Positions 1 through 6,640 of a DNA stretch of 64,000 bases are shown here, one piece after another (position 1 is the stretch's first letter; each line of letters starts with the position of its first letter). The position numbers and the translations under genes are program-made. The stretch spans positions 1 through 64,000 of the forward strand of contig NZ_JALBWV010000034.1 of assembly GCF_022678645.1 (NCBI RefSeq). Direction: 5' to 3'. Source of the stretch: Saccharopolyspora soli. GTDB taxonomy: Bacteria > Actinomycetota > Actinomycetes > Mycobacteriales > Pseudonocardiaceae. Below the pieces are notes generated by a model. The model searched no databases and was not told the DNA's origin. It saw only the letters and a list, made by a program, of their open reading frames with translations.

Positions 1-85
1 GTGGCCGCCCCCGGCCAACGCTCACCCCAACACCCTGGGGGTGCGGCCCAACCCGGGTTGCCCCCGGCTTGCGCACTCACGATGT

Positions 86-1846
86 CTATTGGGTGGTGGT
101 CAGGGGTGTCGTGGTGGGTGGGGCGAAGGCACCGAGGGTGAGGCCGAGGGCGGTCGGCGCGTCGGGAATGCCGCGTCCCGTGCGCAGGGCGTCCGGCGAG
201 CCGGGGGCCGCCAGCGGGCGGCAGCTGGCGCGCAGGATGTCGAACAGGTGCTCCACTCGCGCGGCACCGTGCATCGGGAGTTGGCCGCGGAAGTGCTCGT
301 GGTGCGCGAGGACCAGCGCGGCCAGACCGGCGATGTGCGCCGCAGCCAAGCTGGTGCCGTCCAGGACGGCATAACCGTTCCCCGGCGCTGCGGACAGGAC
401 TGCCACGCCCGGTGCGCATACGTCGATCTCCGGACCCGCGGCGCTGAACCCCGCCGAGTACAGGCCGTCGGGGGTGACCGGCATGGCCGGGTGCGTGGCG
501 TGGGACGTGTCGGCCGGGTAGGTGCGCAGCGCTCCCAGCGCGCCGACGGTGAACACGGTCGGCAGGTTGGCGGGGAAGGCGACCGGTCCGGCGGTGTCCC
601 CGGCGGGCGCGATGCAGGCGATACCGGCGTTGTAGGCATCCAAGAGCTTGCGCGCTACCAGTGTCGACGTGTTGGGGGACGCGACGGCGAGGTGCGCGAT
701 GTCGATGGATTGTTCGATGCAGCGGTCCAGCGCGGCGATCAGGTCGCTGGCGCGGCCGCCCGGCAGGACTCGGCAGGAGTCCAGTTCCGCGTCCACGGCG
801 ATGCCGACGATGCCGCTCTCGCTGTCCAGGCCAGCGATGATCCCGGCGCAATGGGTCCCGTGCCCGACCGGATCGTGGGCCCAGTCCCGTTCCTTGCCCC
901 AGACGAAGTTGAGTCCGCTCCGGATCCTGCCCTTGAGGTCGGGGTGCTCGGTGTCGACTCCCGAGTCGATGGTGGCGATCCTGACGCCGTAGGCGCGGAA
1001 CGTCGGCGGGACGCGGTCCAGTCCGAGCGCGCTGTGGCCCCAACTCAGGTGTTGCCGCTCGGACAGGTCCGGGAAGGTGTTCCCCAGCGGGGTCAGCGTG
1101 ATCAGGTTGTCGTCGGTGCTCGTCAGCGCCGGGCGGACCAGCCAGCGGTCCCAGTGCTGTCCCGCCGGTTTGACGTAGACGGCTTGGACCTGCTCCGCGG
1201 TGTCCCCGGTCAGCGTGATGGTGGCGCGACCCTCGCGGTCGGTGACCGCCTGCGTCGGCCAACTGGCACCGAGGAGGTACACGCATGCACCCGCCACGGG
1301 TTTGCCGTCATCGTCGGTGACGCGGAAGGGCAGGTTCGTGATGTCCTCGCCGAGGGGGACGATCATGCTCGGGTCGTGCAGGAAAAGCCCGTCGACTCCG
1401 GGGGTCGGGGCGCTGTAGGTCAGCGACCAGTCCCGTTCGACGTGCACCTGGGTGGACTCCAGGGCTTTGGCCTGCTCGGCGGTTGCCTCGATCACGACGA
1501 TTTCCGGACAGGTGGGCGCGGCCAGCGCACCGTTGATCTTCGCGGCGGGGCGCAGCCGTTTGAGGACGGTGCCCGAGCCGTTGCGCCGTTCCAACGCGTC
1601 GCACAGGGTGTCCATGCTGATCGCTGCCACGCCGGGCGGCAGTTCGCGCTGCGGAACGGCCGCCACCATGTAGCGGTCCCGCCGCGGCTCAACCCGGCCG
1701 TTGTCCCGTGCTGGGCGGCTCTTCCGCCCGCGCGCCTGCTGGCCACCCTTCTGCTTCGCCTGTTGGCCACCGCGCTGCTCGGCGGAAGCCTGGGCGTCGG
1801 TGGACGAACCGTTCGCCGCGCCGCTCCTGTTGGTCTGCTCAGTCAT
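86..1846 (-). CDS. Subtilisin-like serine protease (S8 family) with a long N-terminal region
   Basis: A 586-residue S8 peptidase. The catalytic triad is visible as Asp294 in ATIDSGVD, His329 in GHGTHCAG and Ser499 in DGTSLAAAH. The residue that normally supplies the oxyanion hole (Asn in AAGN) reads Asp417 in PAGDT, and the Ser motif is SLAAAH instead of the usual SMAxPH, so activity or specificity may be unusual. About 230 residues precede the protease domain: a basic Gln/Gly/Arg-rich start, then a segment with a carboxypeptidase-regulatory or Ig-like look (GKPVAGACVYL...GRATITLTG). I see no signal peptide, so it is probably cytoplasmic or exported by another route. It lies 169 bp downstream of the WxQQ-repeat protein gene on the same strand, a likely operon. 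The family call is firm; the substrate is unknown. Confidence 0.9.
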   Translation of the reverse strand: MTEQTNRSGAANGSSTDAQASAEQRGGQQAKQKGGQQARGRKSRPARDNGRVEPRRDRYMVAAVPQRELPPGVAAISMDTLCDALERRNGSGTVLKRLRPAAKINGALAAPTCPEIVVIEATAEQAKALESTQVHVERDWSLTYSAPTPGVDGLFLHDPSMIVPLGEDITNLPFRVTDDDGKPVAGACVYLLGASWPTQAVTDREGRATITLTGDTAEQVQAVYVKPAGQHWDRWLVRPALTSTDDNLITLTPLGNTFPDLSERQHLSWGHSALGLDRVPPTFRAYGVRIATIDSGVDTEHPDLKGRIRSGLNFVWGKERDWAHDPVGHGTHCAGIIAGLDSESGIVGIAVDAELDSCRVLPGGRASDLIAALDRCIEQSIDIAHLAVASPNTSTLVARKLLDAYNAGIACIAPAGDTAGPVAFPANLPTVFTVGALGALRTYPADTSHATHPAMPVTPDGLYSAGFSAAGPEIDVCAPGVAVLSAAPGNGYAVLDGTSLAAAHIAGLAALVLAHHEHFRGQLPMHGAARVEHLFDILRASCRPLAAPGSPDALRTGRGIPDAPTALGLTLGAFAPPTTTPLTTTQ

Positions 1847-2015
1847 CTCGTCTCCACGGCCCTTCTCGCCGTCGCATTGGTCATCCCGAAAAGCGCCACC
1901 GGCAACCGACTGCTGCCGTGGCCCGTTGTGACCAGGGCCGCGGCAGTGACCGGGGCGGAGAAGTGCCCGAGCCGATCACGGTCTCGGGCACCTCCCTCAC
2001 ATCGGATTCATCCGG

Positions 2016-2486
2016 TCACAGGAACGAACCCACCGCACCGCCGAACTGCGGCTGGACCTGCTGGGTCCACGGAGTCCACGAAGTCTGCTGGCTCCAGGGA
2101 GCCCACGAAGCCTGCTGGCCCCAGGGGGCCTGCTGGGACCACGGAATCTGCTGGGTCCATTGCGCCTGCTGGGTCCACGGAACCTGCTGGCCCCACAGCG
2201 CTTGCTGTCCGGACCAAGGCTGGAACCACTGCGCACCGAACTGGAATTGCGGCAACATCTGCACCAGTCGTGCCTGGATCACGTACGGCACCAGATCCAG
2301 CACCGCCGCGGCCGCCAGTTGGCTGGCGTGCAGGATCGCTGCCGGTGGCACGACCGGGGCCGCCTGTGGCTGGATCTGGCCGATCTGCGGCTGGATCATC
2401 GAGCCGAAGGGCACCTGGCCGGAAGCCGTGCTCGCGCCCAGTCCGTACATGGACTGCGCGGGGTTCGGCGCAACCATCGCTGTCAT
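2016..2486 (-). CDS. Small Trp/Gln hexapeptide-repeat protein, function unknown
   Basis: A 156-residue protein I do not recognise. Residues 1-50 are rich in Pro, Gln and Gly, residues 51-80 form an Ala/Leu/Val-rich, probably helical stretch, and residues 87-143 are a tandem repeat of W-[S/T/G]-Q-Q-x-x. Trp residues at 98, 104, 110, 116, 122 and 128 are exactly six apart, followed by two nine-residue units (WAPWSQQ and WTPWTQQ). There is no Cys, signal peptide or transmembrane segment. The start is well supported: AGGAGG lies at 2491-2496 on the minus strand, four bases before the ATG. It precedes the S8 protease gene on the same strand and could be its substrate, scaffold or partner. The coding call is good; the role is open. 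Confidence 0.72.
   Translation of the reverse strand: MTAMVAPNPAQSMYGLGASTASGQVPFGSMIQPQIGQIQPQAAPVVPPAAILHASQLAAAAVLDLVPYVIQARLVQMLPQFQFGAQWFQPWSGQQALWGQQVPWTQQAQWTQQIPWSQQAPWGQQASWAPWSQQTSWTPWTQQVQPQFGGAVGSFL
2058..2228 (-). repeat. Coding tandem repeat, 18-bp period (W-x-Q-Q-x-x)
   Basis: This stretch encodes residues 87-143 of the small repeat protein. The period is 18 bp at DNA level (six residues); the later units are 27 bp (nine residues). The encoded unit is Trp, then Ser/Thr/Gly, then Gln-Gln and two variable residues, often ending in Pro. The Trp and Gln-Gln positions are strictly kept while the linker residues vary. Confidence 0.8.
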
Positions 2487-2965
2487 CCGTTCCTCCTATG
2501 AAGCGGGGAAATGCCCGGTAGATCTTGGATATCCGGGACTTGCAGGCAGCCCAGACGCTAGGGAGGCCACCAGACCCCAGCAACCGGAGTTCACCCGTGC
2601 GACGAGACCCGACGAACGAACAACGCCCCGAACGAAGCAACATCGGTGGATCTTCGCGAAAAACCCGATGGTAGAGCCGAATTCTCTTCACGGACCGACG
2701 TCATGAACGGGCAGGCGCCCACCGCGGATCCGACGCGGAAGATCCACAGTGGTCACCAAGATCCTTGTGCGACCCACGACGCCCCACCGCCTGACCCGCG
2801 GTCTGGGGCTTGTCTTCGCAGCGGCGTGGAGTGGCGGTGCGCTGGCGTCCCGTCAGCAGACATGACCTGTACCAGATGGCCTAATCGCAAACGATTTTCT
2901 TGTTTGCGCTAACGAGTGCGCGTTAGGTGTTGGTCATGGCGACGTCAGGAAGGGGATGAACGCTC
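2487..2965. other. Intergenic region between the repeat-protein gene and ggt
   Basis: A 479-bp gap between divergent genes. I find no convincing gene in it. It must hold the promoter of the repeat-protein/protease pair and that of the gamma-glutamyltransferase gene. The recognisable structure is the pair of inverted repeats at 2886-2926. Confidence 0.6.
2886..2926. promoter_or_regulatory. Two abutting inverted repeats upstream of ggt
   Basis: CGCAAAC (2886-2892) pairs with GTTTGCG (2902-2908) across a 9-nt AT-rich spacer. CTAACG (2909-2914) pairs with CGTTAG (2921-2926) across 6 nt. They touch each other and end 39 bp before the ggt start. They could be an operator or part of the leader; no regulator is encoded next to them. 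Confidence 0.4.
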
Positions 2966-4858
2966 GTGGGCGATGTGATCCGGCCGTCTCGTCGTGACCT
3001 GTTGAAGGCAAGTGGTGCCACCGTGGCGCTCTCCGCGATGGGTGGCGTGCCCGTCGCGGCAGCCGAGTCCGTACCCGAGAATGCGGCCATGAGTACAACT
3101 GGCAGTCCTACCCTCAGCGAAACGCCGTTCGGGCAGCCGACGGCGTCGATTCCTGAGCCGGGCTCGACCATCACCGCGGTACGGGGGAGCCGCACGTCGG
3201 GTTGGGGCCTGCAGACCCGTTCGGAGGTGCTCGCGCGCAACGGGGTCGTGGCCACCAGCCAGTCGGTTGCCGCGCAGGTCGGGGTGCGGGTGCTCGCCGA
3301 AGGCGGGAACTCGGTGGACGCCGCCGTGGCCACCGCGGCGATGCTCGGCTTGGTCGAGGAGCTCAGTGCCAGTATCGGCGGCGACAGCTTCGCCCTGCAC
3401 TACTCCGCCGCCGACCGCACGGTCTACGGCCTCAACTCGGCCGGATGGGCGCCCGCGGCGTGGACGCCGGAGTACTTCCGCAGCCGGGGTTACACCCCGG
3501 AGACCGGCATGCCCAACGACGGCATCGATTCGGTCACCGTGCCCGGCGCGGTGGCGGGTTGGGACCAGTTGTTGAAACGCTTCGGCCGCAAGGATTTCCA
3601 CGCCGTGCTGCAGCCCTCCGTGGAACTCGCGGAGCAGGGTTTCGGAGTCACCGAACGAATCCGCAGCCAGTGGGACGGTGCGGTCGAGAAGCTGAGCAAG
3701 GACCCGGATTCCGCCCACACCTTCCTCATCGACGGCAAAGCCCCCGACCTGTATTCCATCTTCCGCAACCCGGACCTGGCCCGCGCCTACCGCGCGTTGC
3801 AGCGGCGGGGCGCGGATGCCTTCTACCGCGGCGAAATCGCCCAGGCCATCGTGGAAAAGAGCAAGGCGGTGGGTGGTGCGATCACCGCGGATGATCTCGC
3901 GGATTTCCAACCCGAGTGGGTGCAACCGCTCACAGTGGACTACCACGGCTACGAGATGAACCAGCTGCCGCCGACCACGCAGGGCTTCGCGGTGCTGATC
4001 ATGCTCAACGTCATCAAGCAGATCACCCCGGTGCACGGCTACGACCTGGCGCAGCTCGGCCCGAGGTCACCGCAGTTCTGGCACTTCGTCATCGAGGCCA
4101 AGAAACTCGCCTACGACGACCTCAACCGCTACAACGGCGATCCGAACGTCGTCGACGTGCCGATGGACATGCTGCTGTCCGACGAGCACGCCATCGAGCT
4201 CTGCCGCCAGATCGATCCGAAGCGGGCACATCCTCCGCAGGTCCCCGGCGCGGTCAACTCCGGCACGGTCTACATCAGCACGGCGGACCGCTGGGGCAAC
4301 ATGACCTCGTTCATCTACAGCAACTTCTCCAACTTCGGCTCCGGCGTCACCATCCCGGGGTTCGGTTTTCCGCTGCAGAACCGAGGTGCGTTGTTCAACC
4401 TCGACCCCGCCTCGCCGAACATCGTGGCGCCGCACAAGCGTCCGTTCCACACGCTGATCCCGGCCTTCGTCACCCAGGACGGCCGACCGGTGCTCTCCTA
4501 CGGGAACATGGGCGGCGGGGCACAAGCCCAAGCCCAGGCCCTCGAAATGGTGTTCATGGTCAACCTGGGCATGAATCCCCAGGCCGCTACCGACGCCGCT
4601 CGCTTCTACCACGACCACTTCAACGACCAGCTCGAACTGGAACCCGAGTTGCACGACCTCGTCGGCGCCCAACTCGCGGGGATGGGCCACCAACTCGCAT
4701 CGCCGTCGAGTTCCAGCGTGGGCGGTTACCAGGCCATCCACTTCACCCCGGAGGAACCCGGCGACTGGCCCGCCGCCACCGGTCCCGACGGTCCGGTCAA
4801 CGGCGTTTACCGAGCCGCATCCGACCACCGCAAGGACGGCACCGCCATCGGCTGGTAG
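2966..4858 (+). CDS. Tat-exported gamma-glutamyltransferase family protein
   Basis: A 630-residue member of the gamma-glutamyltranspeptidase family (Ntn hydrolases), which transfer or hydrolyse gamma-glutamyl groups of glutathione and related amides. The N-terminus has a twin-arginine signal (SRRDLLK followed by a hydrophobic stretch ending VPVAAAE), so the protein is likely exported folded. The autoprocessing site can be placed at TVYISTADRWGN: aligned with the TTHYSVVDKDGN small-subunit start of known enzymes, the nucleophilic Thr is kept but the second Thr is Val. A Gly-rich loop (NMGGGAQAQAQ) follows. The GTG start at 2966 has AGGAAGGGG 11 bases upstream; a nearby ATG at 2956 is out of frame. 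The gene stands alone and is closed by the hairpin at 4887-4936. Substrate range is not predictable. Confidence 0.85.
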   Translation: MGDVIRPSRRDLLKASGATVALSAMGGVPVAAAESVPENAAMSTTGSPTLSETPFGQPTASIPEPGSTITAVRGSRTSGWGLQTRSEVLARNGVVATSQSVAAQVGVRVLAEGGNSVDAAVATAAMLGLVEELSASIGGDSFALHYSAADRTVYGLNSAGWAPAAWTPEYFRSRGYTPETGMPNDGIDSVTVPGAVAGWDQLLKRFGRKDFHAVLQPSVELAEQGFGVTERIRSQWDGAVEKLSKDPDSAHTFLIDGKAPDLYSIFRNPDLARAYRALQRRGADAFYRGEIAQAIVEKSKAVGGAITADDLADFQPEWVQPLTVDYHGYEMNQLPPTTQGFAVLIMLNVIKQITPVHGYDLAQLGPRSPQFWHFVIEAKKLAYDDLNRYNGDPNVVDVPMDMLLSDEHAIELCRQIDPKRAHPPQVPGAVNSGTVYISTADRWGNMTSFIYSNFSNFGSGVTIPGFGFPLQNRGALFNLDPASPNIVAPHKRPFHTLIPAFVTQDGRPVLSYGNMGGGAQAQAQALEMVFMVNLGMNPQAATDAARFYHDHFNDQLELEPELHDLVGAQLAGMGHQLASPSSSSVGGYQAIHFTPEEPGDWPAATGPDGPVNGVYRAASDHRKDGTAIGW

Positions 4859-4886
4859 CACACGTCGAAACCAGCTGATCCCAGGT

Positions 4887-4936
4887 TCGAAACGTGACAC
4901 GCTCGGCGACAAGTCGCCGAGCGTGTCACGTTTCGA
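4887..4936. terminator. Long perfect hairpin, bidirectional terminator
   Basis: Two 24-bp arms (4887-4910 and 4913-4936) are perfect inverse complements separated by only AA. It lies between the convergent ggt and lrp genes, and its right arm contains the lrp stop codon (4926-4928). There is no strong T-tract, as is common for actinomycete terminators. Confidence 0.8.
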
Positions 4937-5393
4937 TCGACTTCAGTGCGGAGATCGCAGTGGAGTGGGTGTGGCGGTAGATCACCGATGTCTTGAAACC
5001 GGTGACCTCTTTGCGCTTGGCGAGCCGATCGACGAGGAAGGCGTGCAGCCGATCGAGATCCTGCACCGCGACGTGGAGCAGGAAGTCGTCATTCCCGGCG
5101 AGCACGAAGATCGACAGCACCTCGGGCAGGGTCGCGACGAAGTCCTGGAAGGAATCGATCACCTGCCGGTGCAATGGCCGTACCTGCACGGAGATCATGG
5201 CTTGCACGCCGCGGTGCAGCGCAGCCAGCGAAACGTCCGCGTGGTAGCCGCGGATCACGTCGCGCCGTTCGAGGGCGCGGACGCGCTCCAGGGCCGTCGA
5301 GGGTGCGACGCCCAGCCGTCGGGCGAGTTCGCGGTTGGTCTGCCGTGCATCGGTCTGCAACTCGGCCAGGATCGCCGAATCAAGTTCGTCCAT
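4926..5393 (-). CDS. Lrp/AsnC family transcriptional regulator
   Basis: A 155-residue Lrp/AsnC regulator. An N-terminal winged HTH (residues 4-60: DSAILAELQTDARQTNRELARRLGVAPSTA in two overlapping motifs) is followed by a RAM/AsnC ligand-binding domain (about 68-145). These proteins bind amino acids and form octamers. It is divergent from the branched-chain amino acid dehydrogenase gene at 5561, and an inverted repeat abuts its start codon. The likely job is amino-acid-responsive control of that dehydrogenase together with autoregulation; this is inferred from position. Confidence 0.9.
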   Translation of the reverse strand: MDELDSAILAELQTDARQTNRELARRLGVAPSTALERVRALERRDVIRGYHADVSLAALHRGVQAMISVQVRPLHRQVIDSFQDFVATLPEVLSIFVLAGNDDFLLHVAVQDLDRLHAFLVDRLAKRKEVTGFKTSVIYRHTHSTAISALKSIET

Positions 5394-5421
5394 GACCGGA
5401 AAATAACATGATATTCCGGTC
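5394..5421. promoter_or_regulatory. Candidate Lrp operator abutting the lrp start codon
   Basis: GACCGGAA (5394-5401) and TTCCGGTC (5414-5421) are perfect 8-bp inverted arms around a 12-nt AT-rich centre. The element begins directly next to the lrp start codon inside the divergent lrp/dehydrogenase region. This is typical placement for autoregulation. The assignment to this Lrp is inference. Confidence 0.5.
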
Positions 5422-5560
5422 GTTTGTTCGGATTATCAAGTTGATTCCATTCATTTCAGTATGGTCATCGCCATAACGTCGTACATACGGGCGAGTCTCA
5501 GGCGAAGTGCGGATCATCTGTTCGGGCTCGGTTCTCCGCCTGCGAATCCTGGAGGAACAC

Positions 5561-6640
5561 GTGAATGCGACCAGCGGTCACCAAGCATCGAGGTTTGAGC
5601 ACGAGGAGGTCGTGGTGCGCCGCGGCCAACGCAGCGGGTTGCCGATCATCGTGGCAATCCACTCGACAGCGCGGGGGCCCGCCATCGGTGGGTGCCGCTT
5701 CTGGCAGTACCCGCACTGGACCGACGGTCTCACCGACGCGCTCCGCCTGTCGGCGGGCATGACCGACAAGTGCGCTGCCGCCGGGATTCGGCAAGGGGGC
5801 GGCAAGACCGTGGTAGCGCTGCCGCCAGGACAGGTCCTCGACCCGGCAGCTCGGCGTGACATCCTGCACGACGTCGGCGACGCCATCGACAACCTCGGCG
5901 GGCGGTACACCACGGGCCCAGACGTCGGCACCACACCCGATGACATGGCCACCATCGGTGAGCGCACGACGAGCGTGTTCTGCCGACCCCGTGAACTCGG
6001 TGGCAGCGGCGACTCGTCCCCGCGCACGGCCACCGGAGTCTTGGCCGCTCTCCAGGCCCTGTGCGCCCATCTCGACGGACGGGCCACGCTCGACGGCCGC
6101 CGGATCAGCCTGGTCGGCCTCGGCCACGTCGGAACCCTGCTGGCCCGCGAACTCGCCGCGGCCGGAGCGAAACTGCTCATCGCGGACATCGACACGACGC
6201 GGCGAGTAGTCGCAGCGGAACTCGGCGCTGAGTGGACCAGCCCGGAGCATGCCCTGACAGCCGAAGTCGATGTGCTCATCCCCGCCGCCCTCGGTGGCCA
6301 ACTCACCGATGACCTCGTGCCCCGGCTCCGGTGCGCGGCCATCGCCGGACCGGCCAACAACCAGCTCGCCAACGAATCGGTTGCCGACCTGCTGCATTCC
6401 CGTGGCATCACCTGGGCGCCGGACTACCTGGTCAGCGCCGGAGGAATCCTGTACGCCACCGCATCCGAGATCGACCGACTCGGCCACGACCAGGCCGTTG
6501 AACGGGTGCGAACCATCGGTGCGAACCTGACCGCGGTCCTCGATGCCGCACGGCACGGGAACTGCAGCCCGCACCACGCCGCCCGCGCCCGAATCCACGC
6601 CCTGCTCCAAGTCCGCAACAAGCCGGAGCCCGCCAACTGA
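5561..6640 (+). CDS. Glu/Leu/Phe/Val dehydrogenase (branched-chain amino acid dehydrogenase type)
   Basis: A 359-residue NAD-dependent amino acid dehydrogenase that oxidatively deaminates a branched-chain or aromatic amino acid to the 2-oxo acid. Visible motifs are the glycine-rich substrate site RQGGGKTVVAL with its conserved Lys, GPDVGTTPDDM with the catalytic Asp, and the Rossmann motif GLGHVGTLLARELA. Length fits the Leu/Val dehydrogenases (about 350-365). I place the start at GTG 5561 because GGAGGA lies at 5551-5556; in-frame codons further upstream have no ribosome site. It is divergent from an Lrp/AsnC gene, which fits induction by its amino acid substrate. Valine dehydrogenase is the most likely identity in actinomycetes, but Leu or Phe cannot be excluded from sequence. 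Confidence 0.85.
   Translation: MNATSGHQASRFEHEEVVVRRGQRSGLPIIVAIHSTARGPAIGGCRFWQYPHWTDGLTDALRLSAGMTDKCAAAGIRQGGGKTVVALPPGQVLDPAARRDILHDVGDAIDNLGGRYTTGPDVGTTPDDMATIGERTTSVFCRPRELGGSGDSSPRTATGVLAALQALCAHLDGRATLDGRRISLVGLGHVGTLLARELAAAGAKLLIADIDTTRRVVAAELGAEWTSPEHALTAEVDVLIPAALGGQLTDDLVPRLRCAAIAGPANNQLANESVADLLHSRGITWAPDYLVSAGGILYATASEIDRLGHDQAVERVRTIGANLTAVLDAARHGNCSPHHAARARIHALLQVRNKPEPAN

Follow-up and report, generated by a model that had tools for sequence, protein, structure and literature searches.

What function ties a glutamine (Gln)- and tryptophan (Trp)-rich repeat protein to a subtilisin-like protein encoded directly beside it? The question is raised by one end of contig NZ_JALBWV010000034.1 of Saccharopolyspora soli, the first 64 kb of whose 90.9 kb form the stretch analyzed here (the window). 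As the original prediction stated, a gene for a 156-residue Trp/Gln repeat protein lies there just upstream of a gene for an S8 (subtilase) family protein. Both lie on the minus strand, 169 bp apart; since the window starts at contig base 1, the DNA downstream of the S8 gene is not visible. Our analyses confirmed that the pairing of a Gln-rich protein with a subtilase-fold protein is conserved. The conserved features of the Gln-rich partner are its position and composition.

Relatives of the pair (loci and genomes are cited by our L and G numbers) were scored in two surveys. The first counted a same-strand open reading frame (ORF) within 2.5 kb upstream of S8 as a partner if it contained an 80-residue stretch with at least 20% Gln. 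Of its 39 rows, 35 had at least 1.5 kb of upstream DNA, and 32 of these carried a Gln-rich ORF (29 of 32 distinct loci after removal of the duplicates L032, L047, and L027). The second survey, which used a 60-residue stretch with at least 18% Gln, set no minimum upstream length and included some partner ORFs that are cut, found a Gln-rich upstream gene in 22 of 24 rows, or in 21 of 22 without L079 and L083. The original prediction had named frequent separation of the two genes as evidence against a functional pair; counted from the S8 side only, 50 of 54 distinct loci, the window included, have a Gln-rich gene a short way upstream of S8 and in the same orientation. These loci span two phyla and include Saccharopolyspora, Streptomyces, Thermomonospora, and Bradyrhizobium. 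Elsewhere in the locus DNA (494 kb), just three ORFs pass the Gln threshold of the first survey. The four exceptions are L055, with a charge-poor PAGAYQLAPYG-type repeat protein in the partner position; L064, whose partner has two helical repeats and few Gln overall; L102, where five similar repeats of hydrophobic segments followed by QQQ fall below the Gln threshold; and L034, which has a broken S8 and no Gln-rich neighbor. S8 matches under 300 bits (the fragment L033 and L050–L053) were not counted, except that L045 (230 bits) was kept in the first survey only; L062, L065, L031, and L048, which lie at contig ends, were not counted for the partner. Duplicates (L032 of L006, L047 of L056, L027 of L009 with an identical protein, L079 of L030, and L083 of L034), recognized by the lengths of contig and protein and by score, did not count as distinct, and the Bradyrhizobium loci, which are close relatives, were counted singly.

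The cassette is distributed sporadically. Among 297 genomes of the window's family, an S8 match at E ≤ 1e-80 was present only in the window's own genome and in G256, of the same genus, and 2 of 22 genomes of that genus had a match at E ≤ 1e-50. In G256, a 260-residue WSQQ/FGQQ protein is encoded directly upstream of S8. Further S8 relatives were found on two Streptomyces plasmids and in 14 of 394 genomes of the class, and a species collection yielded 27 S8 loci, the last four being generic S8 only. In two other families, S8 occurred in 6 and 28 genomes of 200 each, adding 5 and 19 loci, and a third family had it in 3 of 35, all already in the set. A homolog search of the 297 family genomes with the repeat protein, as originally suggested, returned its own genome and a 46-residue low-complexity match in G193; it missed the partner in G256, so sequence search is unfit to find such low-complexity proteins or orphans. 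A related-loci search with P0002 alone matched 48 stretches, none of them a relative.

The window's repeat protein contains seven exact WxQQ units, which start at residues 98, 104, 110, 116, 122, 131, and 140. No shuffle in 20,000 of the whole protein (maximum 4), nor any in 20,000 of the repeat region alone, reached this number. The spacing had been called strict, which slightly overstates it: exactly six residues separate the starts of the first five units, while the two final steps measure nine. Between units the codons vary, except those for Trp and Gln-Gln, so the repeat is not a recent DNA slippage array, and the codon-position GC contents of the gene (0.68/0.52/0.83) are as expected of a real high-GC gene. 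The remaining particulars of the prediction held up as well: the ribosome-binding site is perfect (AGGAGG, 5 nt ahead of the ATG), a composition count found no Cys, and inspection by eye, in place of a predictor, showed no signal peptide. With 33 Gln (21%), 19 aromatic, and only 2 charged residues among 156, the protein has by residue counts, as opposed to a prion predictor, a prion-like composition, rich in Gln and aromatic residues and poor in charge. The earlier idea of a scaffold or self-assembling protein fits such a composition. No Pfam or NCBIfam family matched the repeat protein; these scans, like those with PADLOC, covered chosen proteins of chosen loci.

Composition is also what the partners of other loci share. 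Gln content is 19–40%, with few charges, in 20 of 21 partners measured, L064 having 6% (in an ORF with an N-terminal extension). Their motifs differ by lineage: WSQQ/FGQQ in Saccharopolyspora, MSVYTPQQ-type starts in Streptomycetaceae, and YGQ/QQ-type repeats in family f19. (We take f19 to be Streptosporangiaceae and f21 to be Streptomycetaceae, going by the records of Thermomonospora echinospora and Streptantibioticus ferralitis and by known taxonomy.) The Bradyrhizobium partner carries three copies of a RQLSPQDVSEVVRQILPIVPQIV-like segment, and L006, L008, and L030 have a central partner segment in common. The WxQQ hexapeptide, which had been put forward as the defining feature, thus gives way in relatives to FGQQ, YGQ, or helix-plus-Q-linker repeats, and as a conserved signature it was rejected: among 26 partners, more than one unit occurs only in the window (7), L006 (10), L049 (4), and L008 (3). 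Homology of the partners across phyla, sought with a model of the Bradyrhizobium helical repeat in 17 other partners with 200 shuffles each, was not shown; the model came near significance only in L006 (5 of 200) and L030 (9 of 200), the figure for the window being 38 of 200.

The S8 protein of the window is a multidomain protein. PF00082 spans residues 287–519 with 112.9 bits against a gathering score of 21.8, and Big_1 matches residues 166–221 below its gathering score. An AlphaFold2 model (mean pLDDT 71.5, 14 sequences) shows a beta-alpha-beta-beta-alpha-beta domain at residues 57–138, a beta domain at residues 169–251, and the subtilase domain from residue 289. Many subtilisins match this model in Foldseek at E of about 1e-18, and the best match in the Protein Data Bank is unprocessed pro-subtilisin E (3whi; E 1.5e-20), at a root-mean-square deviation of 10.1 over 526 alignment columns, which means that the domains are not superposed as one body. 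The long non-protease N-terminus of the original prediction is present; given the topology of the model and the pro-subtilisin E match, it most likely comprises a prodomain and an Ig-like domain. A Pfam scan of the S8 protein matched no I9 or other prodomain model. The catalytic triad of the window protein is intact (D294, H329, and the Ser of DGTSLA), and an Asp stands where the oxyanion-hole Asn is expected. The convertase PC2, with an Asp at the oxyanion position, is active, so this Asp need not abolish activity.

Catalytic residues have been lost in part of the S8 set. We aligned 57 distinct S8 proteins, of which 56 were readable at the active site, L029 being truncated. Asp, His, and Ser are all present in 41 of 56, the window included, and His and/or Ser is lost in 15. 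The latter comprise all 10 readable Streptomycetaceae (L008, L009, L028, L030, L031, L034, L054, L080, L081, and L082), L006 from Saccharopolyspora, L048 and L049 from alphaproteobacterial metagenome-assembled genomes (MAGs), L056, and L066. L034 is included although its frame is broken, which is why its Ser position reads as Arg in one alignment and Ala in another. Twelve of the 15 keep a Gln-rich neighbor, two (L031 and L048) lie at contig ends, and the broken L034 is without one. The two genes have therefore stayed together even where the usual cutting mechanism cannot operate. On a quick tree of 33 rows, which carries long-branch warnings, places the window unsurely and leaves out L034 (broken), L029 (truncated), L031 (on a short contig), and the rows of the second survey, the state of the triad requires three changes, two of them forced by well supported branches. 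The Ser-less S8 genes of three Streptomyces-type loci are under purifying selection, with pairwise dN/dS (ratio of nonsynonymous to synonymous substitution rates) of 0.21–0.29; for their Gln-rich partners the values are 0.38–0.51. As a separate observation, the broken frame of L034 and a TGA inside the match of L082 suggest decay of the cassette in some Streptomycetaceae.

A third gene often accompanies the pair. In f19, which includes Thermomonospora, in family f20, and in Bradyrhizobium, an ORF usually of ~95–150 residues lies between the two genes. A model of this middle protein built from eight sequences (A7) matched in 12 of 394 class genomes, each time beside S8; all 12 are among the 14 genomes with S8, and none of the other 380 matched. 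Since eight of the 12 matches are the model's own sequences, the independent test consists of the remaining four and the 380 genomes without a match. All 12 Bradyrhizobium-type middle genes, none of which went into the model, were also found by it, at E of 5.5e-8 to 7e-4 among 1,593 ORFs. When the Bradyrhizobium and actinobacterial middle proteins were compared profile to profile, the probability was 30% (E 0.00054), a weaker result than the matches of the sequence model. The protein is predicted to fold as a small helical bundle (pLDDT 74.6), and a fold search returned 88 matches at E up to 10, none at or below 0.001. In the second survey, the gene is present in 19 of 19 f19 rows and in none of five f21 rows; the model had no match in the window. 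That Actinomycetes and Bradyrhizobium share this order of three genes would suggest that the system is either old or has spread laterally. Some loci carry, just upstream of S8, free-standing ORFs that resemble the S8 prodomain (L055 8499–8756, L064 7006–7287, and L065 8736–9017; also L086, L089, and L092, and weakly L102). Their products could possibly be separate inhibitors or chaperones.

We tentatively propose, as a reading we would place somewhat short of even, that the Gln-rich protein forms a self-assembling, prion-like scaffold in the cytoplasm that is recognized by its subtilase-fold partner; we infer the assembly, the binding between the two products, their cytoplasmic location, and the direction of control. 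The product of the first gene, nearly uncharged, rich in Gln and aromatic residues, and often provided with short hydrophobic segments, would probably assemble by way of numerous weak contacts between Trp, Phe, or Tyr and Gln, giving a condensate or a gel. The product of the last gene, with its prodomain, Ig-like domain, and subtilase fold, would recognize this assembly. An S8 protein with an intact triad could trim or dissolve it, and one without would be a subunit that binds or senses without cutting, in the manner of CspC in Clostridioides difficile. The middle helical protein of many lineages and the free-standing prodomain-like protein of a few may regulate the subtilase. A bolder form of the proposal is that these loci are a new class of regulatory cassette that genetically locks a prion-like condensate scaffold to a reader with a subtilase fold, with proteolysis lost more than once (in Streptomycetaceae, an alphaproteobacterial lineage, and others) and the former protease turned into a pseudoenzyme sensor of the assembled state; we regard this form as doubtful at present. 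Were the proposal correct, bacteria of two phyla would possess a recurrent system in which a charge-poor Gln/aromatic-rich protein is encoded beside a subtilase-fold partner. Repeated triad loss under purifying selection would offer a natural series on the role of a non-cutting subtilisin fold, and the cassette a small, genetically simple model for research on bacterial condensates and prion-like proteins, with active and inactive versions ready-made.

Several points weigh against the scaffold proposal. Prion-like behavior is judged here from composition only, and low-complexity Gln-rich repeats can arise easily. Homology of the Gln-rich proteins across lineages cannot be shown by sequence comparison; the helical-repeat model did not beat its decoys in most partners, that of the window included, and a similar composition may thus have arisen repeatedly. 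A disordered, Gln-rich chain could serve just as well as the substrate of a protease, and the triad is kept in most readable S8 proteins. Finally, in the precedent, GerG of C. difficile, the repeats are dispensable for GerG function (PMC5241399).

GerG and the Csp proteins nonetheless form the closest described arrangement, as an analogy of principle. GerG is an Asn-rich, gel-forming protein needed to incorporate CspA, CspB, and CspC into spores (PMC5241399). There, an amide-rich repeat protein is functionally tied to subtilisin-like proteins, some of which (the pseudoproteases CspA and CspC, in contrast to the protease CspB) lack catalysis; our cassette likewise pairs an amide-rich and probably self-assembling repeat protein with such proteins. 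However, GerG is described as rich in Asn and Met, exclusive to C. difficile, and acting in spores (PMC5241399), whereas the repeat of the cassette is rich in Gln and aromatic residues and is encoded beside S8 in many species. Nor does the S8 protein of the window belong with the Csp families of NCBIfam, its scores against CspBA and CspC being 29.3 and 17.3 bits against cut-offs of 1250 and 675.

The precedent of GerG (PMC5241399) also favors a different account, in which the cassette serves to form or to open up an assembly for storage or protection in spores or resting cells and the subtilase is linked to germination or recovery, much as with CspA/B/C. Several f19 loci have genes for a Crp-type regulator, a universal stress protein, an Rv2632c-like protein, and Hsp20 as neighbors, as in dormancy gene sets (by Pfam in L058 and L059, the two loci on which it was run, with similar ORFs in L060, L061, and L063). 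These neighbors were encountered in a single clade, however, and none is among the three neighboring genes scanned in the window. To our knowledge, Bradyrhizobium does not form spores. We consider this account unlikely.

More unlikely still, in our estimate, is that the S8 protein cuts the repeat protein, whether to free short Trp/Gln peptides or to activate it. Adjacency of the genes, the intact triad in 41 of the 56 readable proteins, and the ease with which a disordered Gln-rich chain is cut would all suit such a role. By contrast, repeated loss of the triad with the partner kept, as seen in 12 of the 15 S8 proteins lacking His and/or Ser, speaks against the cutting of a precursor into small peptides as the general function, which had been one of the original suggestions. 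In addition, the repeat units are not kept as peptides across lineages, and no signal peptide was seen by eye. Among maturation proteases, cyanobactin PatA and QhpE resemble the S8 protein in having a small protein encoded nearby; they differ in that no repeated cleavage core is kept between cassette lineages and that the S8 protein scores only 26.1 bits against PatA (TIGR03895) and 49.1 bits against QhpE, the cut-offs being 421.05 and 165.

It is improbable that the repeat gene is a coincidental, weakly constrained by-product and that S8 alone matters. Partner sequences do diverge quickly, to the point of being unalignable across phyla, and their dN/dS exceeds that of S8. Yet 50 of 54 distinct loci, from two phyla, preserve the order of the genes, composition is kept even though sequence is not, and the partners are under net purifying selection in the three Streptomyces-type loci tested. 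Least probable of all is a role in phage defense or cell death, with a sensing assembly that switches on the protease. In its favor, PADLOC's generic subtilase model and, more weakly, its IetS model match the S8 domain, and the distribution is sporadic with carriage on two Streptomyces plasmids. Against it, the four other cassette proteins scanned had no PADLOC match, and no gene for a sensor ATPase, a CHAT protein, or a membrane-disrupting partner was noticed next to the cassette; a single scan of viral contigs turned up no relatives, and some members have lost catalytic residues. Membership in a described anti-phage system was accordingly rejected, the generic subtilase and weak IetS matches concerning S8 alone. 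A viral or phage origin was rejected on the same single viral scan and because the 22 phage records that matched did so within the S8 domain and only in part, all covering less than 80% of the query.

Neither a protein family nor a paper that describes the cassette turned up, the literature searched having thin coverage of subscription papers. Secreted subtilases of the subtilisin and fervidolysin kind share the I9-type prodomain topology and the subtilase fold (fervidolysin, 1r6v, is among the fold matches), whereas the cassette S8 has no signal peptide by eye, an Ig-like domain predicted between prodomain and protease, a replaced oxyanion Asn in the window, triad losses in 15 of 56 readable members, and a Gln-rich neighbor. 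Type VII secretion mycosins provide the best NCBIfam match of the S8 domain (TIGR03921, 92.3 bits; 103.1 bits for L035 and 106.4 bits for L058), far under the cut-off of 278.75, and no type VII secretion genes were noticed beside S8. Eukaryotic prion-like domains of the FUS type consist of aromatic-plus-Gln repeats and are almost uncharged; the repeat protein resembles them in composition only, no homology being shown.

Features of the repeat gene and the S8 gene in the window (residue numbers refer to the encoded proteins).
Feature	Position	Strand	Basis
Gln/Trp-rich repeat protein gene, 156 aa	2016..2486	-	ORF and composition
WxQQ repeat region, residues 87-143, seven units	2058..2228	-	0 of 20,000 shuffles reach 7
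AGGAGG ribosome-binding site of repeat gene	2492..2497	-	sequence
9-bp GC-rich hairpin between repeat and S8 genes	1963..1991	-	stem as long in 4 of 300 shuffles
S8 subtilase-fold protein gene, 586 aa; D-H-S triad, oxyanion Asn replaced by Asp	86..1846	-	PF00082 E 2.4e-32, alignment, model
Predicted I9-type prodomain, residues ~57-138	1433..1678	-	beta-alpha-beta-beta-alpha-beta in model; pro-subtilisin E match
Predicted Ig-like/carboxypeptidase-regulatory-like beta domain, residues ~169-251	1094..1342	-	Big_1 E 4.2e-7, below gathering score; model
Subtilase domain, residues ~289-540	227..982	-	Pfam, model, fold search

The hairpin of the window could possibly act as an attenuator or as a stabilizer of the mRNA. 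Longer stems occur elsewhere, none matched in 300 shuffles: 11 bp in L006, after the repeat gene and before its downstream neighbor, 14–15 bp between the repeat and middle genes of the Bradyrhizobium loci L035 and L039, and 12–14 bp between the middle and S8 genes of L058, L059, L061, and L063. Intergenic hairpins were weak in L030, L049, L054, and L056 (14 to 48 of 300 shuffles as long), and a search for them in L009 and L028 found none. Partial termination at such hairpins might possibly yield scaffold in excess of S8.

The S8 genes of rhizobial and Agrobacterium plasmids were set aside as a different group, their neighbors of 80 and 81 residues (two read) not being Gln-rich. They align from query residue 174 on and so seem to share the Ig-like-plus-S8 layout. 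In L012 (Agrobacterium pTi, 1–6408) and L010 (4662–6412), an S8 gene of this group is followed directly by a similar gene of 80–81 residues, and across from it on the pTi plasmid are a CHAT-domain gene and another S8 gene.

Among other neighbors, an M48 metallopeptidase gene (L036 2863–3930, identified by Pfam on this copy only) lies upstream of the Bradyrhizobium cassette, with similar ORFs in L038, L039, L044, and L046. In both alphaproteobacterial MAGs, what looks like the same regulator is encoded on the opposite strand downstream of the triad-less S8 gene (L048 2319–3083 and L049 4472–5170), and the L049 protein matches the LuxR-family GerE domain. In the window, a gamma-glutamyltransferase gene with a Tat-like signal (2966–4858) is divergent from the repeat gene, and beyond it an Lrp/AsnC-type regulator gene (4926–5393) is divergent from a Glu/Leu/Phe/Val-type dehydrogenase gene (5507–6640), which together look like an ordinary amino-acid metabolism pair.

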